The notes beneath the pieces were generated by a model that was not told where the DNA came from, searched no databases, and was given only the letters and a program-made list of their open reading frames with translations. The translations under genes and the position numbers were made by a program. From Coptis chinensis (lineage: Eukaryota > Streptophyta > Magnoliopsida > Ranunculales > Ranunculaceae), in contig JADFTS010000116.1 in the NCBI GenBank assembly GCA_015680905.1, positions 25,389-89,388 of the forward strand: a stretch of DNA of 64,000 nucleotides, given 5' to 3'. Of the stretch, positions 12,348 through 48,094 are shown piece after piece; the first letter of the stretch is position 1; every line of letters starts with the position of its first letter.

Positions 12348-12559
12348 TTTTTTTTTTTTTTTTTTTTTTGCTAAATAAGTTAAAAATTATATTAAAAGTA
12401 AAGTATTATACAAGTACATTAAAAGGACATCACTCCCCCTAATCTATTTGGTTCAAGCAAATCTCATAAAGGTTTGATAAGGCACCTCCTATTTATGAAT
12501 CCAAAGGGGTTTCTCATTACAAACAATTAACAGATCTTTCTCTAGGTTTGAGGCTTTTT
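12348..12559 (-). mobile_element. 3' tail of a 5'-truncated LINE, first half
   Basis: Starts on the plus strand with a poly-T run of about 20 bases, that is the poly-A tail of a minus-strand LINE. The remaining approximately 190 bp is its 3' UTR. The other half, which codes for the end of an RNase H domain, is at 48095-48334, beyond the copia insertion. Confidence 0.7.
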
Positions 12560-12815
12560 TGTTGGAAAACTAAACCAAATTTCTAGAAGTCAAAGAGTCT
12601 TAGTGAAAGTTTAATTGTGTCTAGGATAATGAAAAGTCTAATTAAAATGTGTAATATAGTTAATGAGGTTTCTAGTATCTAGAGTCTTCTTTAAAGGCTA
12701 TATAAGCCATTTATGTATCTGTTTATAGATTAAGAATAAAACTAAGAAACAAATAATTGAGTTGTTTGATGGAAATTCTTCTCCCAAAGTGATAATCTAA
12801 GTTACTTTTATAACA
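12560..12815 (+). repeat. Copia 5' LTR
   Basis: 256 bp, TGTTGG to ATAACA. It matches the 258-bp 3' LTR at 47837-48094 apart from roughly ten substitutions and small indels. A TATA-like TATATAAGCC lies near 12700. Confidence 0.93.
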
Positions 12816-15130: not shown

Positions 15131-15661
15131 ATGCTAGAAAGTGAAGAAGTTGGCTCTCACACAGACAGTGCACCCCCGACTTCATCAAGAGATGATGACT
15201 ATGAAAGTCCTCCCCAAAAAGTGAGAAGTATACGAGAACTTTACAACTCGACTGAGCAAATTGAACTAGATGATGTTGTTTACTTTGCTTTCTTTACGGG
15301 AGAGGATCCAATTTCATTTTATGACGCGAGTAAAGAAGAAACATGGAAACAAGCAATGATAGAAGAGATAAAGTCCATTGAGAAGAATGGCACTTGGGAG
15401 CTCACAGATCTGCAACCACACAAGATTCCTATTGGAGTGAAATGGGTATACAAAATAAAGAAGAATCCAGATGGCTCTATCAACAAATACAAGGCAAGGC
15501 TTGTGGCGAAGGGATACAAACAAAAGGAAGGAGAAGATTATACTGAAGTATTTGCTCCTGTTTCCAGACTTGAGACCGTCAGACTAATGATTTCTTTTGC
15601 AGCTCAAAACAATTGGAAAATATTCCAAATGGATGTGAAGTCGGCGTTCTTAAATGGAGTT
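15131..15661 (+). pseudogene. Copia reverse transcriptase, first part
   Basis: After a variable linker, RT starts with [20 protein letters not shown], then [19 protein letters not shown] and [11 protein letters not shown]. It breaks at [11 protein letters not shown], exactly where the gypsy element inserted. The first catalytic Asp (MDVKSAF) is present. The same protein resumes at 46638. Confidence 0.92.
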
Positions 15662-17116
15662 TGATAAGCACCCAAAAGTGTATTATGAAACCCCATTGAG
15701 ACATATAAATTTGGTTAATTATGTGTTTAATAATCATGAAATAAATATGTTTTCATACTTTTGCAGGTATTTGCAGTAAACATGGAAATATTGGTTAAAC
15801 CTGCGATAAAGCACGAGGAACGGCGTATATATGAATTCTTCCAAATCCGCACAGAAGCATCAAAATTCCAAAGCTCCTACCTCTCGAACCAGGACTCCGA
15901 ATGCGACAAGAGAGCTGCTCAGACAATCAGGACGATGAACTCTACGCATAGGCGCGAAGTTGTAAAAACTATCCAAAATACCGGACCGCCACTGGACTGC
16001 ACATGGACCCACTATGCGGGGCCACAAGATTGGATGAGTCATCAATCATGGAGCATGTCAAGACAAAAATAACAAATTATTGGTGCAAAGTTGACACCTT
16101 GCATGTAATAAATTAGATTAGGTGTTAATAGTGAAAAAAAAAATGCAAGGTGTCACTTTGTTTTAATGTGGTGGATAAAAATGAATTAATGTGGTTTGAT
16201 GATTCACGTGGGAGGAAATGAGATTTCTCTCAAATGGAGAAGAAATTAGACAAGGGTGGGGGACACTCCATTTACTCCCTTGACTTATTTTTCTTACATT
16301 GCATTATTTTAGTTCCTTAGTGAGAAAAATCATAAGTTAGTTTTTAGTTTTTATAAGAAAAGCTTGTAATAGTTTTAATGGAGGAAACACTTGTTTTCTT
16401 CTAGAAAATAAATAGAAGTGAGTTTGATTGTTTAGCTTTCTCCTCTCTCTCTCTTTTGTTTTTTTTAGTTTATAAATCCTTGTCCCAAGGATCATGAGCT
16501 AACTTCCCTTTTGGGGAGTTAATCCAACTCATGTGAGGGTAAATCAATTTTTGTTGGTTTGGTAGGTTGTTAGGAAGAACAACTAGCTCTACACCCTATC
16601 CCAAAATGATAGTTGGTGTAGTGTCTAGTTAGGAATCAAAGCAATGAGCTTAGAGATAAGTCATTGCTTAGTTCCCACTTGCTAGCATGTGTGAGCTCTT
16701 AAGTGAGCCATACATGCTAGGGATCAAATCTTTTCTTCCATTAGGGGCTTGTCTATGAGTCTAGGAAGGATCAAATAACCTTTTTCAAATCAACAACTAA
16801 TGATAGTTTCACATGAGTAGGATTAACTCTCCACCTTTTCTTTCAAATCTCTATTTTGGTATTAAGTGCATGTTTTCAAACTTTAATGTCTTTCTTAATG
16901 TTTGTGTAGGAAGGAAAACCTAGCATCAATATTATAACCTTACTCCTTAGTTCCCTTTATTGTAACATCCAATTTGTAGTTGTTCTAAAACTTTAGGTTA
17001 GATCGAATCCTTAATCCAACTCTACGAAACGAAGATCGTGAGTAAAGAACTTTGAGTGCTTTTGCATCAATTTAGAGAGTTCAAACCTCTAAGTAGTAGT
17101 AAAGAGGCATATATCA
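15662..17116 (+). repeat. 5' LTR of Athila-type element A
   Basis: 1,455 bp, paired with 45181-46637. From about 16030 to the end the two LTRs are nearly identical, while 15770-16030 differs by many clustered substitutions and indels. A TATA-like TTTATAAATCC lies near 16469. Confidence 0.95.
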
Positions 17117-24837: not shown

Positions 24838-25758
24838 GGATCTGACGTTAAAAGACTCAACATGTATATACTCGTTTTTTTTTTTTTTTTTTATTATTAT
24901 TATTAGCACCCAGCATGGTGCCCAAAGAGAGTCGTGATATGCACCATCGGATATTTCCTAGTTCGTACGGGCAATGGATTCCACCAGGCCAGCCCCGATC
25001 AGTTTTCTATGTGATGTTTCGGGGTGGTTTGAGGCTATACCATATATACCAAGGGTAATATTATTATTAGACCATTGCACATTGGTCAAGGATGAATGCC
25101 GATCACGAACCCTAGGCCCCCAAAACATAAAGGATAAGCCACGGTCACGGGGATTGGGTTAAGCCGAAAATGGCATGAAAGTTGCCTGAGTTAAGTTGTT
25201 TTGATGTGTTGTTTTATTTGGACTTCTGGTGTTGTTGACACGTTCTTCTCGACTTGTACATTTGTATTTAAAAGTGTAAATAAATAAAAACCAAAAAAAA
25301 AAAAAAAAAAAAAAAAATTATTTGAATGTGATTTTTTTCATATTCTAGTGGATGGCAATTTTAATGCCGATCGTTTTGATATCTCATCCGTTCAATTTGG
25401 AGTTGAAACGAATCGAATTTCCACGTTTGAAATTTCGGAACATTTCGGGACATAAGGGGAATTTCTGTTATTCATTTGGGCTTGGGCCAAAATTTTGACC
25501 CGACCCAAAAATCAAAAATCCAGGTACAAAGCCCACGCGCGAGGCACCCACGCGTCCACCCCTCTCATTTCTTCTTCCACAGTACAAAAATCGGATCTTG
25601 GTCCCCCCCACACATCACCCGCGCGCGCGACTAGGCAGAGTTGAATTCGACCCGCGCACGCGGGCCAAAGTCCACCAAACTCAACCACCTTCCTCCAGCA
25701 CCATCTCCTCCACCTCTTCTTGCTATTTGCACCCTCAAAATATCCTCTACACCGCACT
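24838..25758 (+). other. Non-coding spacer before accessory ORF1 of element A
   Basis: No gene seen. It holds a poly-T run near 24876-24890 and a poly-A run near 25294-25317. Similar sequence occurs in reverse orientation at about 36020-36890 in element B. The last 150 bp are GC-rich with an alternating CG run (25621-25630). Confidence 0.6.
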
Positions 25759-26724
25759 ATGGCAGCACGAAGGCGAATTACAGTTGAGAGCAATTTCGCA
25801 AATCTCTACAATTTCGGGATGTTTCACCCATTTTTCGATGAAGAAATTGCTAGTAAAGAGTGGGAATATCTATTGCACCGAATTCCAGCTCAGTACTCCG
25901 AAGATTTAGTGTTGAAATTTTACAACAATGGAGGTTTCCGGGGTGACGAATTTTGGATTACGGCGGATGGGTTGGAACGTGAACTCACACTGAAGTTGAT
26001 TTTGAATACCGCACAGATTCCGATAAACTCTGATAGTCCGACCCTGTTATTGTCAGAGTATCCAACCACGAGGGATTTGATGTTTGACACGCTTCTCGAG
26101 GGAGAGTACAACACTGGCTCGAACTGCGTGTACCAGCATTCGCTCAGACGAAACCAATTAGCCGTCACTCAATGGCTGGCGTACAACGTCATTGGAACTT
26201 CAAAGACGTCTGACGTGAACAAGACTTTCTTGCACCTGCTGTGGATCCTACAGGAGAGGAAGAACACTTTCTGTATGGTCCATTTCCTGGGCCATATTCT
26301 TACGACCGCGTCAAACAGGTCAGCTCCTCTTGCTGTACTTGTTACTCAGCTTATGCTTAACTTAGGGTTCCAGTCCGCTACTCCTTTCATTGAAACAAGG
26401 TCTTTCGAGAATTTTGGAATTTTTGAGACTTGTGTTTTAGACCACTGGGACCCAGTAGCTAGAGATGACATTGAGCATGATAACGTACCTCCTCCTCCTC
26501 CTTCACCACCCGACTGTTTTAATGAAGATACCATGCGTTGAATCAATACTCCTATGGATGCCTTGAGGCACATGAATACTAGTATGCGCAGGATGTTTCT
26601 TCGCCAGGAAGAGATGCTTACTTCCCAGAATGACTTCCAGCAAGAAATGAGAAATCGCCAAGGCCGTTTCTAGAGAATGATGATGGCAACTCAGCAGCAA
26701 TTCCAAGATCGATTTACTTTCTGA
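25759..26724 (+). pseudogene. Accessory ORF1 of element A, plant transposon-associated protein
   Basis: Open from MAARRRIT (25759) for 260 codons to TGA 26539-26541. The same frame continues with a Met/Gln-rich, coiled-coil-like tail to about 26724, broken also by TAG near 26671, so the original protein was about 320 residues. Motifs: GMFHPFFDEEI near residue 21, YSEDLVLKFYNNGGF near 46, NQLAVTQWLAYNVIGTS near 140, HLLWILQERK and APLAVLVTQLMLNLGF. The order resembles the 'putative plant transposon protein' domain (FYxN, RG/GxxF, WLYxxxxxTSHTSE-like), recalled from family knowledge and not searched. Function unknown. Homologues: ORF1 of element B and ORF2 of both elements. Confidence 0.72.
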
Positions 26725-27044: not shown

Positions 27045-27114
27045 CCCAACGGTCAGAACCCAACGGACTGATCCAAACGGTCGGATGCCGATCGGTCAAA
27101 TCAAGTTATAAATA
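27045..27114 (+). promoter_or_regulatory. Putative internal promoter with AACGG motifs and TATA box, element A
   Basis: CCCAACGGTCA at 27045-27055 fits the plant mitosis-specific activator (MSA) consensus with core AACGG. Further AACGG cores occur at 27062-27066 and 27076-27080. TATAAATA follows at 27107-27114, and then a CT-rich leader. Element B has the same order: four AACGGTCA copies, TATAAATA, CT-rich leader. The downstream gene is the 39-codon micro-ORF. The promoter role is inferred from spacing and conservation. Confidence 0.55.
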
Positions 27115-27197
27115 CAACTCTCCTTTCCACTTTCACTCATTCCCTTCTCTCACTCTTCACAAATTCTTCTTCACAAATTTTCAATTCCTTGAACATA

Positions 27198-27317
27198 ATA
27201 AATCAAATAGACCGATGGGAAAAGGAGCAACGCGAATGGGCTATCACATTAATCGTGATAATAGTGTTTATCATTATTCTCTTGTCACTCATGCATAACA
27301 TGATCCAGAACATCTAG
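27198..27317 (+). pseudogene. 39-codon transmembrane micro-ORF of element A, start codon lost
   Basis: 39 codons followed by TAG 27315-27317. The first half is charged (DRWEKEQREW). The second half is one strongly hydrophobic segment of about 18 residues (AITLIVIIVFIIILLSLM) and the protein ends QNI. Element B has an ORF of exactly 39 codons in the same place (34249-34368), ending SNI, with 11 identical positions in an ungapped alignment and Met where this copy has ATA. This copy has therefore probably lost its ATG by one transition. Predicted single-pass membrane peptide with unknown role. It is too short for ordinary gene finders. Confidence 0.62.
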
Positions 27318-27940
27318 ATCTATGTAACCGTTTTTCTTTTTTTTCTGATTTTCATTTTGTATATTAGTATGGTATGTTAAATAATTCTCACACATTTGTA
27401 CGGGTTACGTATTAAATGGAGAAGTTCCGTATTAAATATTTGTGTATATTAGTTGTTTTTTCCTCTCTAAAATAATAATAATAATAAATAAAAAATAATA
27501 ATATATAAATATATAAAAAATAAAAAATAATAATATATAAAAAATAATAATAATAACAAAAAATAATAATAAATAAATAAATAAACAAACAAACCATAAC
27601 AAAGAAAGCCCATCCAAAACTCACCCAAAATAATTAATGGATACACATGGTGTTCGGAGAAAATCATAAGACGCTACAAGGTACACATAACACTTGTCAC
27701 ACATGCGACTTCGATTATTCTATCCATATTCTATTCTTGAGTTATGATCATCATTTCTGAAATTACGTGTAAGTCTAACTACCCCAATGAAACTTTCCTC
27801 CGTATTTTCTAACATTAAACCATCTCATTAATTGTATTTGGATATCGACATGACAAAGACTTCTATGGATCCCCTATGATCTTTGTTCATAATCACATGA
27901 GTCATTAACTACACTTGGACTCCAGATTGGTATAGACTCA
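27318..27940 (+). other. AT-rich spacer before ORF2, element A
   Basis: Holds an (AAT)n-type low-complexity tract at about 27465-27590. Reading frames across it are artefacts of the repeat. Confidence 0.6.
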
Positions 27941-27949
27941 TAGATTGGC

Positions 27950-27957
27950 TATAAATC
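27950..27957 (+). promoter_or_regulatory. TATA box before ORF2, element A
   Basis: TATAAATC, 62 nt before the ORF2 start. In element B a TATTTATA (read on the coding strand, near 33937-33944) stands about 70 nt before its ORF2. A polypyrimidine-CAG (27961-27970) next to it could alternatively be a splice acceptor. Confidence 0.4.
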
Positions 27958-28011
27958 TCTTCTTTTTCAGCCATTCTTATTCAAACAATTTTCACTATCC
28001 TTCCATCAGTA

Positions 28012-28094
28012 ATGGCTCAACCAAAAAAAATAACGGCAGAGAAAGACTACCTGAAAACTTTCGAAGAGGGCCGGTTTTCTCCTTATTTTGACAC
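28012..28094 (+). pseudogene. Accessory ORF2 of element A, 5' exonic piece
   Basis: Starts MAQPKKITAEKDY at 28012 and is cut after GRFSPYFDT by insertion of element B. The last five bases (GACAC, 28090-28094) are the target duplication. The frame resumes at 41107. Confidence 0.75.
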
Positions 28095-29934
28095 TGATAA
28101 AACTTAATTTACAGTCCGTTTATTGGCTTTCAATTACTTAATTTCTTAAGTCCGAGGTCCACAGTCCAAAGTCCAACGTCCGTATAGTCTTACGTTTTAG
28201 TCAAGTTACCTTACTCACGTGGGTTTGGTAGGATAGGTCGAGTAAGGGATCGTCCAAACCTTAGGGCTCGGATAGGTTCACAACTGGAATTACAACTTGG
28301 TGAGTAGGATTTTTAGGTTTCTTTTTAGTTGGTTTTTAATTAAAATAACGGTAATGCAAATAATATAAATTACTACGGCGATTATATGTAGGTAAACAAA
28401 AGTAGAGAAATAGGGAGAGAGTTAATCATGCTCATGCAAGAATCATTTTTCAACAGTTTTTATTACCAAATCACTACATCTCTAATTAGCCTCTCGTTTG
28501 GGAGACGACGCCGAAAGTATTGATCCCATGTGCATGCCCACATCTCTAGGTCGCATTTCACTAGCATAAGGAGTTTCAATAATACCTCATCTCCGGTATA
28601 TTATTTAAGCTCTGGCTCGATTCACATCACCGACCGAGTTTGAGAGTTGTGCGACACCGAGAGAGTCGGCGTGAGAGGTTTTGGTCTGGAGCATCGGCCG
28701 CATCCAACTTTATGCAGTCTCGATCATTTTGGGACGGGATGTTAATTCTATGCCTAATTCTAAGTAGTGATTCTAGAATATTAACAAGTCAATCCGGATT
28801 TTTACATCGAAACATAACCCTCCCCTCGGGGGGGATTAACTATCATCATAGAAGGAATAATAAAACTTCTTTGTATACATTAAGTAAATAAATGCAGGAC
28901 AGAAATTAAACTAGAAAAGAAGTGAATTTATTATTAAAGGTAAAATAACTTACGATATTAAAAGGCTTTGAAATGGAAATGGCGGAAGGTAAATCTTGAA
29001 GAAGAAAAAACTAAAGCGTGGCTAAAAGCATTAATACGTTGAAGGAGGATATATGAAGGCCACCCCCTCATATTTATAGGCATCATAGGATGACTATCCG
29101 CGTGAATGATTTAATTGGCTTTTGGCCTTATGCTAATTGAATGGTTCAAACTTTGAAAATCAAAGTTTTGTTTTAAACTTTTCGTTTTAACTTTTCGTCT
29201 TTTTCTTTGTTTTAAGTTTCATCTTGTAGCTCATTTCAATTCAAACCACCGGGTTTGAATTGGTGCGATCATCTTCTCTCTTGTCGTGGTATCAAATTGA
29301 AACCATCATTTGCCACCTGCCTATCTTTGACTCATCATGCCTTCACGGGCCCAGAGTGTGTCCGATGGCGGCGCCGATTTTGGTGTTTTTACGACTTTTG
29401 TCCTTGTCGCGAGTTAAATTCGCCGCCTCGGTCGCTATGGCGGCTTCACTAGCCAACGTCGGCACCTAGATTTATCGATTTGAGCTTGAAGTTTCCCTTT
29501 TCTTTATATGTGGCCCGATTACGCGACCGGTTACGTTCTTTTGGAAACTTGACTCTAGTCGGGGCTTTGTTGGGCTTCACGGGATTGAGTGGGAATTCCA
29601 AATATTCCTGTATTCTCTGGCGGCTTCACTAGCCAATGTCGGCATCTAGATTTATCCGATTTGAGCTTGAAGTTTGTTGCTTCTTTATATGTGGGCCCGT
29701 TCCGCACTGGTTCTGTTCTTTTAGAAACTTCGGCTTCACGGGGGTCGAGTGGAAAACTTCAATTATTCCCGTATTCACATCTTCGATGCATGTTTTATCA
29801 CTATATTTATTTTAATTGCGGAATCCCCGCAAAAGTAAATGCGAAAATATAATTATTACATGATTATTAAACACATAATCGACCAAAATGTTACGCCTCT
29901 CGGGGTTTAATATTACAGTTTTGGGTGCTTATCA
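28095..29934 (-). repeat. 3' LTR of Athila-type element B
   Basis: 1,840 bp, paired with 39266-41106. An internal tandem duplication of about 180 bp starts at CGGCTTCACTAGCCAA (29441 and 29621). Differences from the other LTR are concentrated in C/G-rich blocks such as 28630-28700 and 29330-29450. Confidence 0.94.
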
Positions 29935-29949
29935 CACCACCCCCAAACA
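29935..29949 (-). promoter_or_regulatory. Polypurine tract of element B
   Basis: On the minus strand TGTTTGGGGGTGGTG directly abuts the LTR start TGATAAG. It primes plus-strand DNA synthesis in LTR retrotransposons. Confidence 0.85.
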
Positions 29950-31667
29950 GCACTTTGCTTGTCCTCAAGCAAAGAAGAGACATTAAGGCGATAAGCGGTC
30001 AAAATGTGTTGTCCTAAGCTAAATCTCATTTCGCAGAGTTTGCGGTTGCATTGATATGCAACAAGGCCTTGAACCACTAGGAATTCCCTAGTGGACGAGT
30101 TATAACCTCGTGAGAGTTTTCTAGAGAAGATACTCACAAACTTCATTTTATACTACAACGACTTCAAGAACAAAGGCTTGTTTCCTTAATTAATCTCGGT
30201 ATCTAGACATCTTACTAGCGGGAAACAAGGATTTTATTCTTTCGAAATTCAAGTTAATATACATACAATAATTGAAACATTTACGTATGAGCATGCATGC
30301 AGGAATCTAATAATGAAATGTACGAGCAGGGCCGTTTCTGGATCCTTTGGATAGCGTCCTTAAGTAGGTTCTCACAATTTCTCTCTTATTTTTCCACTCA
30401 AGCTTTGCTATCTCTAGTGTGCAGTGGGCACACGTTTCCTCACATACTCAATGACAGTTAGAGGAGCCGAGGTCGAGAAGTCACAACTACTACTTATTAT
30501 CATACTATCCTATTCCTAATTGAGCTAGAGTTCTTTATTAGGTTTTATGGGGCTTAGGTGGTAGTGTAGAAGAAAATGGAATGGAAAGTTCAAAAAAATG
30601 ATAAGTATGAGAGAATAAGGTCTTCGAGATATTTATACTAGAGAATCCTTATTTTCCTTCCTGCTTCTAACATGGGTTTCCATACTTGGATTTTTCAAGC
30701 TTTTGTATTCCCTTTTGATTTGATTTTTGGCCTTTTGATTTTTGGAAACATATTTCTATTTTCTTTTTCTTTTCTTCTAAAACAGGTAACTGATTTTGAT
30801 TTGTGACAAGGTTTTTCTCTTCATTTTTCTGCACTTCATCCTATTTCTCATACTCATCATCTAGGTAGGCTTATTTATTTGTGGTTACTAGATGGGTAAT
30901 GATTTTTTTGGTGAAGTAGAAAGGATTAATGAAAGGTTCAGATTAGGCGACTAAGCGGTAAAAAAAAACAGTCGCGAATTTTTTGGCTATATCGATCCAA
31001 AGAAGGCCTAAATTCTAGCCTAGGATTTGGGTAGTGATCAAGTAAGTAGGCGTATGAACTTCTCTATTCTGAAAAACTACTCCTCTCGTGTCATTACTCA
31101 TATATCATACATTTTGAGGCTTTTGGTTAGATTCTTACAGGGATATGGAAACTAAGTTGTCTAAACAACCGGGTCCCGTAAACTTCTTCTTTGTGTACAT
31201 TTAATGATAGTCAGTGCATGAATGCTCATGAAAAGATGTAAAAACTATTGCATACGTATTAAATTAAGTTTCTAAGAACAAGTCCTAATTTTGATGCTAG
31301 GGTGAGATTTCTAAATATTTTTCATCATAGAAAGAGAAACGAGAATTTGTCACTAAATACGTTTATTTAGACATTAAGTAACTATATATATACAACTATG
31401 CATGCCTAATTTTTGCAAAAGGTTCTCACCACCCCCAAACAGTCGGACACTGTGTCCTCAAAGTGTTTAAGAGGAAAAAGAGTATACCTGAGAGGCTTTG
31501 AGTAAAAATAAAGTTGACATCTTCCACAGAAATTTATTGTAACTCACTATATATTATACATCATAAAAGTAGAAACACACTGTTAGAGTAGCACACTGTT
31601 AGGTTATTTATTTATTTCACATCAAAACATAAAACAAATATGTACATGCATCAACTCACATTGCCCC
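29950..31667 (-). other. 3' non-coding region of element B
   Basis: About 1.7 kb without a supported gene. It is homologous, in reverse, to 43290-45167 of element A. A second polypurine-like motif with an adjoining GAGGACA segment lies at 31429-31455. Confidence 0.65.
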
Positions 31668-32626
31668 ATCCTTGAACTGGGGGATAGTCCCTCCTTGCCT
31701 CGTCCCTGTAGAAATGTCATTCCTTCGCATCCCGCCAATCTATCATAGCTTTCCAGACTTCACTCCACTTCCTCTTCTTTGCATTGTCTAGATGAGCTAT
31801 CATTTTATCATCGTTAGGGAAAGAACGAACTTTCTTAAGATACCTTGCAGGGCGTGTCCATGTCCGAAATCGCAAGGAACGAATTATCTTGTTTGTTGGA
31901 CACATAGAGTCGACCTTTACCCGATTAGAAGGTGGCTGCAAAACTTCGAGGGAAGTATGTCATCACTATCCCGCATCTTTATGCTGGCGAGGGGTGATAT
32001 AGTGTTGCCGAAAAAACCGAGCCTTCTTAAGATTCTCAATTACTAGTTACGTAATGTCGAAGGTGTAATGCGTTCTTTGGGCCAATGCATGGAATGTCTT
32101 ACCGCGCTTTGATGCGTGGAAAAATGTCAATCTCCCATGATGTTCGAAGAATAAATAACATGGCGGTTCAACATTCATGGTCATCTTGGCTAGTGGAATA
32201 TTGAATTACGGCCATCGCCCCGACTTTGGCACGTTCTTTGGCGTGGGCAAGGCCATCGCCATAGCGGGCAAAAAATCTTCCCTAGAGTAGTCATTAAGGT
32301 CATTCTCTATCATGTATTAGATGGGGAGATCTGGGTGAAGAGGAGGAAGGTCTAGAGCCATAGCCACCGCCGGCTCATAAAAGCGTGTCGGGTGTTACCA
32401 ATAAGTAGTGTAAACCCATTCAAAGGGAAACCCCGGACACGGTGGTAGATCTTCCATGTTATTATAAAAATAAGTTGCCAAACACGGGAGTATATGTCTG
32501 CTCCGGGTGTAGAATGAGAGAGTTCCATCCAACTTGAGTGATGTAGTCTCTGAAAAGATGTCCATATGCCGGAGAATTTAGCAAAGAATGGAAAGATTGT
32601 TCTGGAATCATCTTTGGAGCTTCCAT
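31668..32626 (-). pseudogene. Accessory ORF3 of element B
   Basis: Starts at 32626 (MEAPKMIPEQSFHSLLNSP), then AYGHLFRDYITQVGWNSLI and QTYTPVF. It parallels ORF3 of element A residue by residue. Frameshifts and stops follow after about 60 codons. The C-terminal part, PTNKIIRSLRFRTW to WSEVWKAMIDW near 31740, again matches element A (WAEIWRTIIYW). Where element A has TAG, this copy has TGG. Function unknown. Confidence 0.65.
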
Positions 32627-32774
32627 TGTGTGAAAAAATTGTGACCTGTTTAGACAAGGATAAACAAATATTAGAGCATGATGAGAATAATTAAGTAAAA
32701 AAAAATTACCATACGAAAATTAAAAACTAAAAAGAAAATGATAAATAATATAAAATTGCAAAATATAAATGGTT

Positions 32775-33868
32775 TCATTTGCCCAAGTAACGGCGAGGAT
32801 ACTTTTGTGGGAGGAATCCGTTTATAAGATTCTCTATGCCGTCAATCCGTGCAACAGCTTGTTGCAACATTTTGTTTTCTGTCTGGTAAATCTCGGCGTG
32901 GTTCTCCATTATGAGAGTGTGATTTGCCAAGAATTGGTTGTGGCTGTGCAAGAATTGTGCTTGTTCCTCTTCGTTTATTGTCCGTAGGTCCTGAAATTCA
33001 AGAAGGCTGGTGATAATAATGTTCTGATGTTTGAATAAAGTCATCAATCCTTGTTGAATTAAGCGAAGCCCTTCCATGGGATTAAATACGTTACATAATG
33101 CATTTTCAGTAAAGATGTTGTCGGTGGAACAATCTTCATTTGGTCCTGTACCGACATGGTTCTTTGCAACGTCGGGGTTCCGAATCCGTTCCTACATAAT
33201 GAGTGAATGGTAAGAATGTTAGTCGCTCAAGAGGTGTGAGGAGAAGTACTAGAAAAACCCCAATGTATCATGATAAGTGTCACAATGGTTGGTAAAGGGG
33301 CTGCCTTTTTTCCCGCACGCGTCGCGATCGCATTCGAGAGAAATTTAATAATGCAAAAATCATTGCAGTTAGTCCGCAACACCCGTGAGTAAATGGAGGA
33401 GTGGTTTGGTTATTTTAAAGTCTTAGATGTGCCTAGGACATTATGAGTTACCCATTGGATCACAGATAATTGGTTCTTTTGTAAAGATCGGCCGATAAAC
33501 AATCACGGTTTTTCGGTTGTATTAAGCCGTGAAGGATAGTTGCAAACATCGGATGCGAATATTATCGAAAGGTGAATCTGAAGGTGTACTCCTTGGGTTG
33601 TAATAGGAATTTGAAGTACCTCGAGATGATTTCTATAGTCAATTCATGCTCAAGATCCGTTAGCACGGACAAAGAATTGTCCGTTTTGGAAATAACCGCT
33701 TTTATAAAATAACAAGACTAATTCTCTGGAATAAAATGTTTGCTTATGGTGTAAAAGAGGGTACCATCCTCGACGTAATATTTCAGTGTCAAAAAAAGGA
33801 TGAAAAAGACCATTTTGAAAATTTTCCATAAAATTTTGCTCAGGCACGAAACTTCGAGTGAGGGCCAT
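32775..33868 (-). pseudogene. Accessory ORF2 of element B
   Basis: Starts MALTRSFVPEQNF at 33868. The N-terminal module reads NGLFHPFFDTEILRRGW, then YSRELVLLFYKSGYF. The centre (33080-33640) is frameshifted. The last 100 codons (32775-33077) form a Gln/Asn/His-rich coiled coil with repeats such as QFLANHTLIMENHAEI, matching ENHSQSLQNHALLMENQ of element A. Layout: transposon-associated domain, then coiled coil. Homologous to ORF1. Function unknown. Confidence 0.68.
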
Positions 33869-34098
33869 TAAAGATGGAGTGGTGAAAAATTATTTTGGAA
33901 AAAGGGAAGTTAAATTTTTGAGGTGTCTATCCTTGGTATAAATAGGCACCCATCCGAAAATGTAAAAGATACGTTTCGAGGTGTCACAGGGTAGTTAGAC
34001 CACGTGTATCTTCTAAGATATGCGCAAAAGTGGATGAAGTGTGGATGAGAAGAATGGGGCATGTGACAAGGAGTGCCCCTTTGTTTGTTTGTTTGTTT

Positions 34099-34141
<43 letters not shown>

Positions 34142-34248
34142 CGTAAGTAGAAGGAGAAGGAAAATGTAGATATACTATCACAATAGAATGTAAGAACATA
34201 CAATGGTATGGAAACACAACATAATGATACGATGACTTAACTACAAAC
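33869..34248 (-). other. Spacer between micro-ORF and ORF2, element B
   Basis: Contains a (TTTG)n plus poly-T tract of about 60 bases (34080-34141) and, closer to ORF2, a TATA-like TATTTATA on the coding strand near 33937-33944. No gene seen. Confidence 0.55.
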
Positions 34249-34368
34249 CTAAATATTAGATAGAACTATATGCCACATTAACAACATGACTATAATAAAA
34301 CAGCCGAGCATGAAAACTTGAGTAGCATATTCAATCTGCTGCTGCTCAAACTTTTCTAGTGCATCCAT
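34249..34368 (-). CDS. 39-codon transmembrane micro-ORF of element B
   Basis: ATG at 34366-34368, 39 codons, TAG at 34249-34251, no damage. N-terminal half polar and Gln/Glu-rich (MDALEKFEQQQIEY). The C-terminal half is a hydrophobic helix (VFMLGCFIIVMLLMWHIVL) ending SNI. It lies between ORF1 and ORF2, as does the 39-codon counterpart of element A. Identical positions include E8, Q11, E13, A15, F24-I26, L29, H33 and N38-I39. Predicted single-pass membrane peptide; no family recognised. Since gag and RT are deleted in this element, its intactness need not mean current function. Confidence 0.65.
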   Translation of the reverse strand: MDALEKFEQQQIEYATQVFMLGCFIIVMLLMWHIVLSNI

Positions 34369-34464: not shown

Positions 34465-34559
34465 TATTTATAGCAAGAAAATTTCTGTTTTCTGACCGTT
34501 TTTTCGATGTGTTTTCTGACCGTTTTTTCGATGTGGTTCATGACCGTTTTCTGACCGTT
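34465..34559 (-). promoter_or_regulatory. Putative internal promoter with four AACGGTCA repeats and TATA box, element B
   Basis: On the minus strand four exact AACGGTCA octamers (plus-strand 34493-34500, 34517-34524, 34541-34548, 34552-34559) precede TATAAATA (34465-34472), about 97 nt upstream of the micro-ORF start. The first copies sit in a 24-bp tandem repeat. AACGG is the core of MSA sites bound by MYB3R factors. Order and spacing match element A. Confidence 0.58.
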
Positions 34560-34934: not shown

Positions 34935-36016
34935 CTAACTGCTCTGGATATCACCAAGAGTATCCATCACCGAGCTCGAATCGATCTTTGGCTCGCCATG
35001 ATCATTCACTGAACTGGTTCCGCGAGTAAGCATATTGTCTTGAAATGCAGTCATGGAGGCTCTCATTTCTGCTGGAATTAAGCCCATGCCGCCCGCATCA
35101 TCGACTTCGTGGCGAAAGGTCATATCCGTCCCTTAACTCGCCCAAAGGTACGTCTCATCGATACCGGGCGAAAGTACATGTCTCTCGGACCATCGCTCAC
35201 GCGCGTAGTGGGGCCTCTATGGGTTGGGTGATCTTACTCATGGCAGTCTCATCAAAGTATGGTGGGTGAGAGGATCCTACGCTAGCGTGCTCGGCAGCCC
35301 TAGGTGTTGTGGGTTCCCAAGGGTCTTGTATGCATTTCTTAAAGACCAGCATATTCTCATATTGTGGTATAGGGAGTAGTGGGGTGGCAGACAGAAATCC
35401 CAGATTAATCATGACTTGCGTTACTAGAACGGCAAGGGGGGCTGACCTAAGAGTGGCATGTGTGATAATATCAAAAAGAAAGGTAACGATGCGTAGTTAC
35501 CTTTTTAAAATCTCTTGAGGATCGAGAGAAGGTGGAGGAAGGTCTTGTTGATGTCGTAAGGCTTCGAGTGCCAATGACGTTCAGTCCCAGCCATTGAGTC
35601 ACTGCTAGCTGGTTCCGTCGCGCATCGAAGCGTACCGATATCGCATTTCCGTCGATGTTGTACTCTCCCTCGATTAGCGCGTGTCGAGCATTAGGTCAGA
35701 AGTCCATGGGTACCACGGACTGCTTTCTTCGAGTCGATGCGTGGTCGACCAGTGGAATGCCCGTGATCCCGGAGAGCAACACCGGTGTGACTTCATGGCG
35801 CACACCCTCGACGGTGACCCAAAAATGGTCGCCATTAAAGCTCCCATTGTCATAGAATTTCATCACCAAATCCTTGGAATAAATCCCTCCATTGGCATAT
35901 AACAAACTCTCCCATCATCTAGAGTGAATTTCGTGATCAAAGAATGGTGCAAACATCCCGTTTTCAAACAAATTCCCAAAAAATATTTCAACACAAATCC
36001 GCCTGTTTCCGGCCAT
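34935..36016 (-). pseudogene. Accessory ORF1 of element B
   Basis: Starts MAGNRRICVEIFF at 36016. Motifs: NGMFAPFFDHEI, then a stop before WESLLYANGG, YSKDLVMKFYDNGSF, FWVTVEGVRHEV, RNQLAVTQWLGLNVIGT near 35590, and a frameshifted centre. The last 60 codons (34935-35123) form an alpha-helical, Met-rich tail. Aligned with ORF1 of element A along its length. Function unknown. Confidence 0.68.
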
Positions 36017-39265: not shown

Positions 39266-41106
39266 TGATAAAGCTTAATTTACAGTCCGTTTATTGGCTT
39301 TCAGTTACTTAATTTCTTAAGTCCGAGGTCCACAGTCCAAAGTTCGAGGTCCACAGTCCAAAGTCCAACGTCCGTATAGTCGTACGTTTTAGTCAAGTTA
39401 CCTTACTCACGTGGGTTTGGTAGGATAGGTCGAGTAAGGGATCGTCCAAACCTTAGGGCTCGGATAGATTCACAACTGCAATTACAACTTGGTGAGTAGG
39501 ATTTTTAGGTTTCTTTTTAGTTGGTTTTTAATTAAAATAATGGTAATGCAAATAATATAAATTACTACGGCGATTATATGTAGGTAAACAAAAGTAGAGA
39601 AACAGGGAGAGAGTTAATCATGCTCATGCAAGAATCATTTTTCAACAGTTTTTATTACCAAATCACTACATCTCTAATTAGGTCTCGTTTGGAGGAGGCG
39701 TCGAGTATTGATCCCTAGTGCATGCCCACATCTCTAGGTCGCATTTCACTAGCATAAGGAGTTTCAATAATACCTCATCTCTGGTATATTATTTAAGCTC
39801 CTGGCTCGATTTCACATCAGCTGGACGAGTTGGAGAGTCTGTCGACACCGTGTCGTCATGCGAAGATCGTCACCGGAGCATCGCTAAATCCAACTTTGTA
39901 CAGTCTCGATCATTTTGGGACGGATGTTAATTCTATGCCTAATTCTAAGTAGTGATTCTATAATATTAACAAGTCAATCGGTTTTTACACGGCGCGCATA
40001 GATAACCCTCCCCGGAGGGGATTAGCTCATCATCATAGAAGGAATAATAAAACTTCTTTGTATACATTAAGTAAATAAATCAGGGATAGAAATTAAACTA
40101 GAAAAAAGAAGTGACTTTGTTATTAAAGGTAAAATAACTACGATTATTAAAGCTGGCGAAATGGAAATGGCGGAAGGTAAATCTTGAAGAAGAAAAAAAA
40201 CAGTAGCTAAAGCATTAATATCTAAAGGAGGATATATGAAGGCCACCCCCTCATATTTATAGGCATCATAGGATGACTATCCGTGAATGATTTAATTGGC
40301 TTTTGGCCTTATGCTAATTGAATGGTTCAAACTTTGAGAATCAAAGTTTTGTTTTAAAAAATTTTAACTTTTCGTCTTTTTCTTTGTTTTAAGTTTAGCC
40401 TTGTAGCTCATTTCAATTCAAACCACCTGGTTTGAATTGGTGCGTCTTCTTCTCTCTTGCCAGGTGGTATCAAATTGAAACCATCATTTGCCACCTGCCT
40501 ATCTTGACTCATCATGCCTTCGGGCCGCAGAGTGTGTCGATGGCGGTGCCATTTTGGCGTTTTATGACTTTTGTCCCTTATGAAGAGTTAAATCGCCCGG
40601 GTACGCTATGGCGGCTTCACTAGCCAACGTCGGCACCTAGATTTATCGATTTGAGCCGGAAGTTTTACGCTTCTTTATATGTGGGCCCGTTACGCCGGTT
40701 ACGTTCTTTTGGAAACTTCGCTCTAGTCGGGGCTTTGTTGGGCTTCACGGGGATTGAGTGGGAATTCCAAATATTCCCCAGATTCTGTTCTTAGCAACTT
40801 CACTAGCCAACGTCGGCATCTAGATTTATCCAATTTGAGCTTCGGAAGTTTGCTGCTTCTTTATATGTGGGCCCGTTCCGCACTGGTTCTGTTCTTTTAT
40901 AAACTTCGGCTTCACGGGGGTCGAGTGGAAAACTTCAATTATTCCCGTATTCCTGTACTTCGATGCATGTTTTATCACTATATTTATTTTAATTGTGGAA
41001 TCCTGCAAAAGTACGAAAATATAATTATTACATGATTATTAAACACATAATCGACCAAAATGCTACGTCTCTCGGGGTTTAATATTACAGTTTTTGGTGC
41101 TTATCA
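39266..41106 (-). repeat. 5' LTR of Athila-type element B
   Basis: 1,841 bp, the partner of 28095-29934, with the same internal duplication of about 180 bp (40612 and about 40795). Followed on the plus side by the GACAC duplication. Confidence 0.94.
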
Positions 41107-42102
41107 GACACCGAAATCATACGTCGCGGATGGACGCCTCTTCTATATCATTCAGCAGCTGGTTATTCCCGAGAATTGGTTTTGATGTTCTACCAATTTA
41201 GCGGATATGAAGATGGAAAATTCTACTTCAATGCCTATGGACAACTATTGGAATTGAATAAGGAAATGATCTCCGACATACTTCAAATCCCAATACATAC
41301 CCAGGAGTGCCTTATTCAAGAGTCATCATTTGATTCCGCAAAAACTTTGCTGCGAGCTACCGTATCTCATGGCGACATCGAAAATACACATCACATTGTT
41401 CTTCAACGCTCTTTGAAACAAAATCAACGTGTTGTGCTCCACTGGTTGGGACATAATGTGGTAGGTACATCACACCAATCAGAAGTCACAAAGCCTCAAC
41501 TTCACCTACTTTGGATTTTGCAAACTCAAAGAGATGACTTTTTGTCGATCGACACCTCTGGAACGTAATCACCAAGAAAACAAGAAGGTCAGCACCCCTA
41601 CCCACTTTAGTAACGCAGATTATGATGCGTTGGGGTTATCTAATAATTTCTCCAGAGACACCCCTTCAAAAAGCATATATAAAGGTACTCCAAACAGACT
41701 ACTCCGTTGGTTTTTGGACCCCTGATACTCTGATAGATGAGTAGAACAACCCAAGCTCAAATTCTGACCATTTATTTGATGAAAATGTCATGCTGAATAT
41801 TATTAATCCCATAGAAGGCATTAAACTTCTTCATCAGGGTTTGAGGGAACTACACGCTCGTCAAAATATCATCATCACAACTCTTCAGGATTTCCAAGAT
41901 CGTCAAGCAACGCATGATGTTGAACATGAGAAGATCTTGGAAAATCATTCTCAATCCTTGCAAAATCACGCTCTCCTAATGGAAAATCAAACTGTACTCT
42001 CTGCCAGCCAAGGGGACATTCAGATGTAACTCGGCCAACAAATAGAAGACCTAAACAATCTGGTGCAAAATATGCATCTCCAAGATCAATATAAGAATCC
42101 AT
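41107..42102 (+). pseudogene. Accessory ORF2 of element A, main part
   Basis: Continues the ORF2 started at 28012: DTEIIRRGWTPLLYH, YSRELVLMFYQFSGY, NQRVVLHWLGHNVVGTSHQS and LHLLWILQTQRDD. A frameshift near 41550 leads to APLPTLVTQIMMRWGY. The C-terminal coiled coil (EGIKLLHQGLRELHARQNI, then ENHSQSLQNHALLMENQ) ends at TAA about 42027, or 42102 if read through. Same layout as ORF2 of element B and homologous to ORF1. Confidence 0.75.
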
Positions 42103-42338
42103 GATATTACTAAGTCAATAAGTATATAATCATATATGTTATTACGTTTTTCCGTCGTACTATGTATTTTGTCTTATCTTTTTGTCTTCTTTTGTATACA
42201 ATGCTTAGTAGGATTGTCATCATTTCCGTTGTGACTAATATCAATTTTAACATGTGCTACAGGAGGGTCTATTTTCTTACATACTCATTTTTCCATACAG
42301 TTGCCGGTATCGTTACACATTTCTTTACTTCACCCACC

Positions 42339-43286
42339 ATGGCATCTTCATCAAACATTGCATCTTCATCATCCATGGTACCTCCCAAACTCATTCCTGA
42401 GCAATCCTTTCAATCTATGATGGATTCCAATGCCTATGGCCATCTCTTCCATGATTACATCACAAACATTGGGTAGTCTTCCCTAATTCTTCAACCTGAC
42501 CAAACTTATTCTCCGAGTTTGGCTGCATACTTTTATGCTAATATGGAAGACACGCTAACATTCAACCATGTGCATGGTTTCTACTTAGATGGGTTCACAA
42601 TCCGAGTTGGTGACACACCTCATATCTTTTCTGAACAACAACTTGCCCTAACTTTGGACCTTCCATACCACGAACCTGCTGCATCTTGGCATTACATCTA
42701 TCAAAATTCTTACCGTTCCTTTTCTTTCGGTGGTGGCAAGCATTTCGCGACTCTTATGGTGATGGTCTTGAGATCAAACGAAGGAGATGGCCATGTGCCA
42801 TGGCGCAACATCACCATTCCATTAGCAAGCATGATCATGAACATGGGACTTTGCAATGTTATTTGTACTCCACGAACATTATGGGAGATTGGCATTTTTC
42901 TCTTGTCAATGAGGCCGCTATAAAATTATTGATTACACTAGCTTCGGGGGTCATGCATTATTTAACATTTTAGGTTGTGTTGTCTCCAACCTGAAGCGAG
43001 CTCGCACTTTTCGGGATCGTATATACTTTTACCGTCCACCGCTTGCGGATCATGAAGACACATTTCCCACGGTTTGCGGCAACTTTTCATGATCGGTCAA
43101 GGTGGATTCCATGTGCCTAACAAAAGCGAATCATTAAGCTCATTTGAGGTTTACATCAATGGAAGGCGTCCTTCGATACGAGGCATGTTCGATGTTACCC
43201 AAAGGGACGAAAAGATGAAGACCAATTTGAGGGAATCGGGAGACAAAGAATGGGCAGAAATTTGGCGGACTATTATCTATTGGTAG
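42339..43286 (+). pseudogene. Accessory ORF3 of element A
   Basis: Starts MASSSNIASSSS at 42339, then LIPEQSFQSMMDSNAYGHLF and YITNIG followed by TAG (42474-42476, Trp in element B). At 42519-42923 it reads LAAYFYANMEDTLTFNHVHG, LDGFTIRVGDTPHIFSEQQ, LTLDLPYHEPAASW and VPWRNITIPLASMIMNMGL. Frameshifts near 42900-43070 precede the C-terminal WAEIWRTIIYW (43286). The FYAN and GF-x-RVG pattern resembles ORF1/ORF2, so it is probably a third, more distant paralogue. Upstream frame 42162-42338 is hydrophobic but T-rich and is not conserved in element B. Function unknown. Confidence 0.68.
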
Positions 43287-44305
43287 CGATGCTAAGGAAA
43301 TGCATTTCCTTAAAGAGGACACCAGACCTTCACATCCTGCTGGATGGTAAACTTGAGTTTGCCATTGTACATATATCTAGCTAAACCTTATGCTTGGTGT
43401 GCTATTGTTTTTCATGTTTCGTATGCTATTGTTTTTTATTTCAATTCGTGTGCTATGTTTAGTGTGCTATTGAACATTTTCTTGTTCTTTCTGAATAATA
43501 TATTATGCTCTCTAACCTTTACATTCGGAATCTAGCCCTAATTTTGCTCCGCGGTTCTCGGGTACTTTCTCTCTTTAATTATTGATCCTTCGAGGACTAA
43601 GCATCATTCTTTTTGGGGTGCTTTAAACTGTGTAGCAAAAATTAGGCATCTTGTAGCCTGTATATAGTTTTTATTTTCATATTAATAATTGTACTTAGTG
43701 AGAAAGTCTTGTTTCCTTTTCAATGATGAAAATTGTCTAGAAATCTCACATTAGTATCCGAATTAGGATTTGTTTTAAGAAACTTTAGATAATAATGTAT
43801 GCAATAGTTTATACATCTTTTCATGAATATTCATGTACTGAGTATCATCGATTGTACATAGCAGTAAGTTTCTGGAACCAACGGTTAGTTACTTAAACTA
43901 TAAATCCTTTGAGAATATAACCAAAAACCTTGACATGAGTGAATTGTGTGTGATGACACAGAGTAGTTTTTCCGATTAGAGAAATCACGCGTCTACTTAC
44001 TTGATCACCACCCGAACCCTAGGCGAGAATTTAGGCCTTCTTTGGATCGACATAGCTAAAAATTCTTACATGTTACAAATTTTACCGCTAGTCACTCCAC
44101 TAAACCGTTCATCAAACCTTTCACTTTCACCAAAAATTCCTTACCCATTTATTAAACCAAATAAAAGAACCTACCTAAGTGATGAGTATGAGAAATAGGA
44201 TGAAATGTGGAAAGAATAAAGAGAAAGACTTGTCCTAAATAAAAGTCAGTTACTTGCTTCAGGAAAGAAAAATAGAATCATGTTTTTAAGCCATCTAAAA
44301 AAATA

Positions 44306-44375
<70 letters not shown>

Positions 44376-45167
44376 AATAATCCATTAGAGGCTTAAGAAC
44401 AAGGTTATAAAACTCGGTTAGAAGAAGGAAAGAAAACAAGGATTCCTCTAGTGTAAATATATGAAGACCCTATTCTCTCATACTCGTAAATTTTGATTAT
44501 CCATTTCCATTTTCTTGTACACTATCCACCTAAGCCCCACAATACCTAATAAAGACCTCTAGCTCAATTAGGAGTAGGGTGGTGTGATAATAAGTCGTAG
44601 ACGTGATTGATCGACATCGGCTCCTCTGACTGTCATTGAGATGTAAGGAAAAGTGTGCCCACTGCACACTGGAGTTAACAAAACCTGAGTGGAAAAATTT
44701 TGAGTGAATTTGTGTTTCAACACATACCTGTGAGAACCCATTTAGGTATGCTCTCCAAACGATCCAGAAACAACCCTGCTAGTACATTCCAATGAAAAGT
44801 TCACTGCATGAATAATCATATGTAGATGTTTTAATTATTGAATACATATTAACTTGAGTTTTAAAGAAATCAATCCTCGTTCCCTGCTAAGGAGATGTAT
44901 GGATATCTGAGATTAATTTAGGAAACGAAGTTTACGTCCATTTGAGTCGTTGTAGTATAAATGAAGTTTGTGAGTATCTTTTTTCGGAAAAAACTCTCAC
45001 GAGGGCTATAACTTCGTCCACTAGGGAATTCCTAGTGGTTTAAGGCCTTATTGCATATGGTCAATGCAACCGCACTCTATGAAACGAGAATTAGTTTAGG
45101 ACTACACATTTTTGGCCACTTATCTATTTTAGTGTCTCTTCTTTGCTTGAGGACAAGCAAAGTGCTG
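43287..45167 (+). other. 3' non-coding region of element A
   Basis: No supported gene. It shares stretches with 29950-31667 in reverse. A second polypurine-like TTTTTGGGGTG with a GAGGAC segment lies at 43591-43620. An (AT)n and (AAT)n microsatellite spans about 44310-44380. Confidence 0.65.
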
Positions 45168-45180
45168 TTTGGGGGTAGTG
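45168..45180 (+). promoter_or_regulatory. Polypurine tract of element A
   Basis: TTTGGGGGTAGTG immediately before the 3' LTR start TGATAAGC, preceded by CTTGAGGACAAGC, as in element B. Confidence 0.87.
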
Positions 45181-46637
45181 TGATAAGCACCCAAAAGTGT
45201 ATTATGAAACCCCATTGAGACATATAAATTTGGTTAATTATGTGTTTAATAATCATGAAATAAATATGTTTTCATACTTTTGCAGGTATTTGCGATAAAC
45301 ATAGAAATATTGGTTAAACTGCGATAAAGCACGAGGAGCGGCATATATATGAATTCTTCCAAATCCGCCGCGAAGCATCAAACTTCCAAAGCTCCTACCT
45401 CTCGAACCGGGGACTCGAATCGCGAAGAGAGCTGCTTCGGACAATCAGGGCGATGAACTCTATGCATAGGGGAAGTTGTAAAAACTGCCCAAAATACCGG
45501 ACCCCGCCATGAATTGGATCATTATGAACCCACTATCATGGGGCCACAAGATTGGATGAGTCATCAATCATGGAGCATGTCAAGACAAAAATAACAAATT
45601 ATTGGTGCAAAGTTGACACCTTGCATGTAATAAATTAGATTAGGTGTTAATAGTGAAAAAAAAAAGGCAAGGTGTCACTTTGTTTTAATGTGGTGGATAA
45701 AAATGAATTAATGTGGTTTGATGATTCACGTGGGAGGAAATGAGATTTCTCTCAAATGGAGAAGAAATTAGACAAGGGTGGGGGACACTCCATTTACTCC
45801 CTTGACTTATTTTTCTTACATTGCATTATTTTAGTTCCTTAGTGAGAAAAATCATAAGTTAGTTTTTAGTTTTTATAAGAAAAGCTTGTAATAGTTTTAA
45901 TGGAGGAAACACTTGTTTTCTTCTAGAAAATAAATATAAGTGAGTTTGATTGTTTAACTTTCTCCTCTCTCTCTCTTTTGTTTTTTTTAGTTTATAAATC
46001 CTTGTCCCAAGGATCATGAGCTAACTTCCCTTTTGGGGAGTTAATCCAACTCATGTGAGGGTAAATCAATTTTTGTTGGTTTGGTAGGTTGTTAGGAAGA
46101 ACAACTAGCTCTACACCCTATCCCAAAATGATAGTTGGTGTAGTGTCTAGTTAGGAATCAAAGCAATGAGCTTAGAGATAAGTCATTGCTTAGTTCCACT
46201 TGCTAGCATGTGTGAGCTCTTAAGTGAGCCATACATGCTAGGGATCAAATCTTTTCTTCCATTAGGGGCTTGTCTATGAGTCTAGGAAGGATCAAATAAC
46301 CTTTTTCAAATCAACAACTAATGATAGTTTCACATGAGTAGGATTAACTCTCCACCTTTTCTTTCAAATCTCTATTTTGGTATTAAGTGCATGTTTTCAA
46401 ACTTTAATGTCTTTCTTAATGTTTGTGCAGGAAGGAAAACCTAGCATCAATATTATAACCTTACTCCTTAGTTCCCTTTATTGTAACATCCAATTTGTAG
46501 TTGTTCTAAAACTTTAGGTTAGATCGAATCCTTAATCCAACTCTACGAAACGAAGATCGTGAGTAAGGAACTTTGAGTGCTTTTGCATCAATTTAGAGAG
46601 TTCAAACCTCTAAGTAGTAGTAAAGAGGCATATATCA
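45181..46637 (+). repeat. 3' LTR of Athila-type element A
   Basis: 1,457 bp, paired with 15662-17116. Followed by GAGTT, the right copy of the 5-bp target duplication (46638-46642). Confidence 0.95.
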
Positions 46638-47350: not shown

Positions 47351-47863
47351 CTTGTTGGCTATACGGATAGCGACTTGGCAAGAAGCATTGATGATAGCAA
47401 GAGCACTTCAGGTTACGCCTTTAATCTTGGAAGTGGAGTTATCTCATGGAACTCGAAGAAGCAACCAGTTGTAGCGCTTTCTACTACGGAAGCTGAATAC
47501 ATTGTTGTGTCTAGTGCTGAATGTCAACTCATTTGGTTGAGAGGAATTTTGGAAAGCCTTAAGCACAAGCAAAAGGATGCAACAACTCTATTTTGTGATA
47601 ACAACTCTACAATTTCAGTCACGAAGAATCCAGTTCTTCATGGCAGGACAAAGCACATCCGGATTAGGTTTCATTTCTTAAGGGAGCTTGTGAATGAAGG
47701 TGAAATACGTATGGAGTATTGCAAGACAAATGAGCAGCTGGCAGATATCTTTACAAAAGCACTTGGTGGACAGGTGTTCAAACAAAACCTCGAGAGTTTG
47801 GGAGTAAAAAGGGAAAATTTGGTTTACGGGAGGCATTGTTGGAAAACTAAACCAAATTTCTAG
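47351..47863 (+). pseudogene. Copia RNase H
   Basis: The open stretch shows SDLARSIDDSKSTSGYAFNL, VALSTTEAEYI, LFCDNNSTISV and KTNEQLADIFTKAL, the four acidic sites of copia RNase H. The frame runs 26 bp into the 3' LTR and ends at 47863. Confidence 0.9.
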
Positions 47864-48094
47864 AAGTCAAAGAGTCCTAGTGAAAGTTTAATTGTGTCTA
47901 TAGGATAATGAAAAGTCTAATTAAAATGTGTGATATCGTTAATGAGGTTTCTAGTATCTCGAGTCTTCTTTAAAGGCTATATAAGCCATTTATGTATCTG
48001 TTTATAGATTAAGAAGAAAACTAAAAAACAAATAACTGAGTTGTTTGCTGGAAATTCTTCTCCCAAAGTAATAATCTAAGTTACTTTTATAACA
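47837..48094 (+). repeat. Copia 3' LTR
   Basis: 258 bp, TGTTGGAAAAC to TTATAACA. Pairs with 12560-12815 and is followed by TTTTT, the target duplication. Confidence 0.93.

Follow-up and report, generated by a model that had tools for sequence, protein, structure and literature searches.

Can a frame of only 39 codons, placed among the accessory genes of two diverged retrotransposons, be a gene in its own right? The question is raised by a 64,000-nucleotide stretch of Coptis chinensis DNA (contig JADFTS010000116.1, positions 25,389 to 89,388; the whole stretch is called the window below), in which two long terminal repeat (LTR) elements, A on the plus strand and B on the minus strand, each carry a very short open reading frame (micro-ORF) between their accessory frames ORF1 and ORF2. 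The micro-ORF lies at 27198..27317 (+) in A and at 34249..34368 (−, read from 34368 to 34249) in B. In B it consists of an ATG start, 39 codons with the ATG included, and TAG; in A 39 codons with ATA at codon 1 are likewise followed by TAG. A preliminary description of this locus had given these coordinates and frames, the 39 codons and the TAG stops, and all of them held when sequence and translation were re-read. We lean towards the reading that the ORF1-ORF2 interval of these Athila-like elements contains a separate small accessory gene for a membrane microprotein, with a promoter of its own that is possibly timed to mitosis.

Similarity of the two micro-ORFs

Aligned without gaps, the two peptides are identical at 11 of 39 residues (E8, Q11, E13, A15, F24, I25, I26, L29, H33, N38 and I39; 28% amino-acid identity), exactly as described before and with the C-terminal NI included. 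The stop codons stand at the same aligned place, and the 120 nucleotides (nt) of the micro-ORF are free of gaps, whereas the surrounding ORF1-ORF2 interval has many. The BLOSUM62 score of the pair is 66. When the residues of B were permuted within three segments, so that the hydrophobic stretch stayed hydrophobic, the shuffled peptides scored -2.7 ± 12.7 and none of 100,000 reached 66; taken by itself, the number of identities attained 11 in 0.15% of these shuffles. The two other forward frames over the micro-ORF are interrupted by stops and give scores of 5 and 12, which rules out conservation at the DNA level as the full account, although some similarity of the leader remains. A neutral simulation, in which A or B was diverged to the observed 59 identical bases of 117, took the place of a formal ratio of nonsynonymous to synonymous substitution for two sequences at this level of amino-acid identity. 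An uninterrupted frame with a score of 66 arose in 1 of 100,000 runs from A and in 1 of 100,000 from B.

These significance tests presuppose the ungapped alignment and a pair chosen beforehand by the preliminary description, a choice that is answered by a search of the whole window and by a test on shuffled intervals. With the A peptide as the only query, tblastn against both strands found the frame of B at E 3.7e-5, the sole non-self match below E 0.1, and the next non-self match at E 0.11. Filters and composition correction were off, which favours chance matches among hydrophobic sequences, so that what counts is the distance between the frame of B and the remaining hydrophobic segments. Among 200 dinucleotide-shuffled interval pairs, compared on the same strand, the best pair of stop-terminated 39-codon frames scored 23, against 66 for the real pair. 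Furthermore, tblastx of the two ORF1-ORF2 intervals placed the micro-ORF within the top single stretch (38.6 bits over 60 residues, including part of the upstream sequence); the next stretches, at 33.6 and 29.5 bits, were T-rich and of low complexity.

Identity by codon position, with the stop included, is 19, 27 and 16 of 40 for the micro-ORF (48, 68 and 40%). The corresponding counts, drawn only from tblastx stretches of at least 30 bits and hence biased to conserved stretches, are 119, 132 and 76 of 189 for ORF1 (63, 70 and 40%), 136, 161 and 97 of 234 for ORF2 (58, 69 and 41%), 70, 81 and 39 of 107 for ORF3 (65, 76 and 36%) and 379, 391 and 267 of 492 for pol (77, 79 and 54%). Judged by these counts, the substitution pattern of the micro-ORF is like that of its coding neighbours and less conserved at first positions. 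The neutral simulation together with the codon-position profile thus gives good support to the proposal that a peptide at a syntenic position has been under selection in the past.

The length of 39 codons is defined by the ATG of B alone, A having none there. From stop to stop the frame is open upstream to 27072 in A (81 codons) and to 34467 in B (72 codons). That the ATA of A is a lost start, as had been suggested, is likely and not certain, as AUA is counted among weak start codons in the passage cited (PMC4422679).

Each peptide has one strongly hydrophobic stretch, with a best 19-residue Kyte-Doolittle mean of 3.1 in A and 2.7 in B, and the N-terminal 15 residues carry a net charge of -1 and -3, respectively. 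Such segments are common here (872 of the 18,037 stop-free 39-codon segments of the window reach a 19-residue mean of 1.9), so hydrophobicity by itself is weak evidence. An AlphaFold model of the B peptide, built on the two-row alignment, has a single helix over residues 2-38 (mean pLDDT 93.8, pTM 0.52); the model indicates a helix and says nothing of a membrane. Hydropathy and model together back the earlier picture of one hydrophobic helix and a transmembrane-type segment in a sense ORF downstream of pol. The conserved residues include charged and polar ones outside the helix core; a histidine and the C-terminal Asn-Ile are conserved too. Neither 39-residue peptide had a Pfam match up to E 5.

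A promoter-like block and its possible meaning

Upstream of both micro-ORFs lies a shared block that the preliminary description overlooked, made up of a TATA box and repeats of AACGG. The TATA box TATAAATA stands at 27107..27114 (+) in A and at 34465..34472 (−) in B, 91 and 104 nt 5′ of the micro-ORF. It is preceded in A by three AACGG repeats at 27048..27080 (+; 27048, 27062 and 27076, spaced by 14 nt) and in B by four at 34496..34559 (−; 34559, 34548, 34524 and 34500, spaced by 11, 24 and 24 nt), the last of which lies 31 nt from the TATA box in A and 28 nt in B. Of the 14 copies of TATAAATA in the window, counting both strands, only the two before the micro-ORFs have an AACGG cluster just 5′ of them. 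Likewise, at least three AACGG within 100 nt of one strand are found at two places in the window, both just 5′ of the micro-ORFs; in 100 shuffled versions of the window such clusters averaged 0.1 per version, and 1 of the 100 attained two. From the TATA box onward A and B are 69% identical over 71 columns.

AACGG is the core of the MSA element, which is bound by MYB3R proteins and is repeated near the start of genes expressed in G2/M, according to passages of two papers (PMC8964727, PMC10905365). The repeats of A (three) and B (four) match this core and lie close to the inferred start of transcription, and for this reason we suggest that the block is possibly an internal promoter timed to mitosis. 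Among the matches listed in the open-licence literature, no MSA- or MYB3R-type promoter was described for a plant retrotransposon.

On this model RNA polymerase II would initiate about 30 nt past the TATA box, near 27137 in A and 34442 in B, giving a transcript with the micro-ORF near its 5′ end, and in B the ATG of the micro-ORF would be the first AUG. Since the repeats match the MSA core, expression may be maximal in G2/M of dividing cells. The peptide would insert into a cell membrane, probably that of the endoplasmic reticulum, as a single-pass protein and would act by binding other membrane proteins or proteins of the element. Small membrane proteins of plant viruses, which act by binding other proteins, provide the analogy. 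A bolder version, which we regard as improbable, is that a tiny membrane protein timed to mitosis helps the RNA or particles of the element to reach daughter or neighbouring cells. The protein would then be made when the nuclear envelope opens, while the cell plate and new plasmodesmata form, and would represent a movement-type function in a plant lineage resembling endogenous retroviruses.

Several observations weigh against a separate membrane microprotein gene. A lacks the ATG, and the first AUG (27215) past its inferred start opens a different frame of 27 codons, so the gene in A is probably already dead. The comparison is one of two elements in one window on sequence alone; each has a broken ORF2 and ORF3, and B a broken ORF1 as well, so that neither is a working example. 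Weak in-frame similarity continues 5′ of the ATG of B, with ten more identical columns in the 33 upstream residues of B and one gap of three; its meaning is ambiguous, as it may reflect conserved leader DNA or an older, longer frame that started further up. The shared AACGG repeats and TATA box may be explained by common descent of the DNA, the MSA role being suggested by motif and position alone. Relatives of A and B were not found in collections that seem to be devoid of such plant elements, and this absence is uninformative. Viral contigs were searched with ORF1, the reverse transcriptase, a piece of the integrase region, a degenerate integrase motif and the extended micro-frame alignment, and genome contigs with the reverse transcriptase and the integrase-region piece, with no confirmed relative even of pol; a protein collection searched with ORF1 gave 730 candidates, none at E 1e-3.

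The sequence can also be read as a conserved upstream ORF in the mRNA of ORF2, the peptide or its translation setting the level of the ORF2 protein. Conserved upstream peptides occur in plants, and the micro-ORF is 5′ of ORF2 in both elements with its stop at the same aligned place. We nevertheless hold this to be unlikely: an unspliced mRNA would have 13 (A) and 4 (B) further AUGs between the micro-ORF stop and the ORF2 ATG, the ORF2 of A has its own TATA-like CTATAAATC 63 nt 5′ of its ATG, and a leader peptide has no need for a hydrophobic helix of membrane type. Simple reinitiation on ORF2 was set aside as a main account because of the intervening AUGs. Splicing could remove them, and A has an acceptor-like site right after CTATAAATC; a crude scan for splice sites gave no consistent or convincing pair for an intron common to A and B in the ORF1-ORF2 interval. 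The micro-ORF may also be read as a membrane-anchor exon formerly spliced to ORF2, or otherwise as a relic of an env-like gene. Env-like ORFs in sense orientation, located between pol and the 3′ LTR, can contain transmembrane segments, and spliced env-like RNA is given for Bagy2 in the passages cited (PMC7264820); both elements have donor-like sites that fall on the stop or beyond it, and in A an acceptor-like site precedes ORF2. Against this, the two stop codons occupy the same aligned position, and simple patterns show no donor-like site within the micro-ORF before the stop in either element; in B one such site overlaps the stop codon. Pfam, the sole comparison made with known env-like families, gave no match for the 39-residue peptides up to E 5, and we judge such a relic to be improbable.

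It is highly improbable that the resemblance reflects chance, or DNA-level conservation of T-rich sequence that happens to translate to hydrophobic residues. Hydrophobic segments are frequent in this AT-rich DNA, as the window-wide hydropathy count shows, the ORF2-ORF3 interval also yields a weak hydrophobic match (21.7 bits), translated similarity extends into the leader, and the identity count by itself is met by the small fraction of segment shuffles given above. Chance similarity is ruled out by the segment shuffles, the neutral simulation, the shuffled intervals (at most 23 against 66) and the whole-window tblastn, while the charged and polar residues that are conserved beyond the helix core and the mismatched, stop-containing other frames also oppose the wider explanation, which is nearly refuted already. 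A captured host gene or cDNA is a quite improbable source of the promoter-like block, the small frame and the poly(A)-like tract. It would account for the A-rich tracts that start about 100-170 nt 3′ of the micro-ORF in both elements (27486..27594 (+) in A, and a poly(A)-like tract at 34074..34153 (−) in B), and host genes expressed in G2/M are known to have promoters with AACGG, from the passages already cited for MSA (PMC8964727, PMC10905365). An integrated cDNA is moreover suggested for the poplar element Tpb1-1, where a transmembrane ORF of 19 codons and a poly(A) of 47 bases lie between pol and the LTR (PMC1142308, in the part cited). A cDNA, however, would not bring along a TATA box 5′ of its own start, and similar A-rich tracts occur elsewhere in the window, for example before ORF1 of A (25268-25328). 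The separate membrane microprotein gene is the reading we prefer.

Structure of the elements and neighbouring features

Self-comparison shows the window to contain nested LTR elements, and judged from these elements the DNA is plant-like. We interpret the outermost pair of direct repeats (12559-12815 and 47836-48094) as belonging to a copia-type element, whose LTRs they would be and of which copia-type domains are present; this element contains A (+), which in turn contains B (−). With boundaries taken from BLAST, the LTRs of A are at 15658..17116 (5′, +) and 45177..46637 (3′, +), and those of B at 39266..41109 (5′, −) and 28095..29937 (3′, −). By eye, the flanks are GACAC on both sides of B and GAGTT around A. 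B is inserted into the start of ORF2 of A: positions 33904-33786 of B align with 27976-28094 of A, and the alignment resumes past the insertion with 33787-29939 of B against 41110-45176 of A. In the alignable stretches of their 3′ parts A and B are 62-64% identical (36-38% diverged). Between its two LTRs, B has 156 differences in 1805 aligned sites (8.6%) and A has 42 in 1454 (2.9%), although the nested B should be the younger. B may have been built from two unlike templates, or the LTRs of A may have been homogenised.

The pol region of A has the protease, reverse transcriptase and RNase H of a gypsy-type element (PF13650, E 6e-6; RVT_1, 28.4 bits, just under the cut-off of 29.6; RT_RNaseH_2, E 6e-16); its integrase pieces gave no Pfam match. 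In B the primer-site region is followed almost directly by RNase H, gag and the reverse transcriptase being missing. The primer-site region after the LTR reads TGGCGCCGCTGC in A and TGGCGCCGCTGCAGGGGA in B, which may be tRNA-Asp-like. A and B look like Athila-type Ty3/gypsy elements, an assignment made from general structure and this presumed primer site. A tRNA-Asp primer site is given for Calypso and Diaspora in the part cited of PMC1142308.

Between pol and the 3′ LTR each element has three collinear sense ORFs, and the order ORF1, micro-ORF, ORF2, ORF3 is the same in both. ORF1 of A (25759..26541, +) is open over 260 codons, has no Pfam match and on its own gave an AlphaFold model with a mean pLDDT of 45.9; that of B (35197..36016, −) is broken. 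ORF2 of A starts at 28012..28094 (+), where the insertion of B interrupts it, and its broken remainder, to which the alignment with B continues at 41110, occupies 41110..42100 (+, end approximate) with a weak PF20167 match (E 7e-8, below the cut-off). ORF2 of B (32775..33868, −) is broken, as are ORF3 of A (42339..42923, +, end approximate) and of B (32352..32626, −, end approximate). ORF1 of B and ORF2 of A are 57% alike over 205 columns (E 1.7e-4), and by this measure ORF1 and ORF2 appear to be related to each other.

The pol-ORF1 interval (24859-25758, +, in A; 36926-36017, −, in B) has a non-coding look and is 62% identical over 702 columns. In A it includes a TGGGCY cluster at 25477-25530, one of two clusters of three within 120 nt in the window and perhaps a promoter for ORF1. 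The TATA-like CTATAAATC of A (27949-28012) has a counterpart in B, CTATTTATACC, 77 nt 5′ of the ORF2 ATG; each accessory gene may have a promoter of its own. The ORF2-ORF3 intervals (42100-42338, +, and 32800-32627, −) are T-rich with acceptor-like CAG near their ends, and by eye are intron-like; ORF3 may be a downstream exon. Long A-rich tracts, possibly cDNA tails, precede ORF1 of A and ORF2 of both elements, with a few more elsewhere in the window. When the other three intervals were scanned for conserved short frames, the best matches were short and mostly fell in several frames or on both strands. Elsewhere the window has a LINE-like element at 4829-8866 (DUF4283, a weak endonuclease match below the cut-off, and RVT_1 at E 1.4e-37), tandem copies of about 159 nt at 54338-55028, which are 70-76% alike and overlap an open minus-strand frame of 278 codons, and many overlapping, diverged direct repeats (about 66-70%) at 61234-63360.

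Comparison with known systems

The statement that no plant retrotransposon gene of this kind has been described needs softening. The nearest precedent is the ORF of poplar Tpb1-1, an element of a related lineage; this ORF too is very short, follows pol and is predicted to be transmembrane, with poly(A) in the same region. It differs in having 19 codons and in lying directly after pol, and in the part of the paper cited its data are not shown; the two are likened here by description (PMC1142308). No other candidate for a short or transmembrane ORF of such elements appeared by title or abstract among the matches listed in the open-licence literature, and the novelty of the micro-ORF is provisional. 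A peptide of 39 residues that keeps a constant position and is accompanied by an identifiable promoter-like block lends itself to direct testing. Annotation by length cut-offs would miss ORFs as short as this one, so that genes of this kind may be common yet overlooked.

Env-like ORFs are typically long. In the passages cited from a review on the additional ORFs that LTR elements of plants carry, those of Athila, Bagy2 and others (aORF-3S) lie in sense orientation between pol and the 3′ LTR, some with transmembrane segments, and the 5′ LTR promoter is held to drive their transcription, which in some cases involves splicing (PMC7264820); the micro-ORF has 39 codons and a TATA-like element of its own. 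The same passages describe sense env-like and antisense ORFs, one with its own promoter, and no microprotein. That one, Grande gene23, is an accessory gene too and likewise lies between pol and the 3′ LTR; it is antisense and its protein is nuclear (PMC7264820). The aORF(-) of sunflower Athila 14 resembles the micro-ORF, by description, in being an accessory ORF of an Athila element and in having a single predicted transmembrane helix, and differs in being antisense with the helix in mid-protein (PMC11728184, in part). For Retand, a passage on ORFs above 600 bp reports no transmembrane regions in the sense ORFs (PMC11963269), and for Athila of Arabidopsis the part cited reports purifying selection on the Gag and Env ORFs (PMC2410132).

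A functional model comes from RNA viruses, with no sequence kinship claimed. P3a of poleroviruses and luteoviruses is likewise a short, overlooked ORF that was found by its conservation and is expressed from a subgenomic RNA, and in the passages cited its product is placed at the Golgi and near plasmodesmata (PMC4422679). By this analogy the micro-ORF peptide is most likely a small single-pass membrane protein that acts on other proteins.

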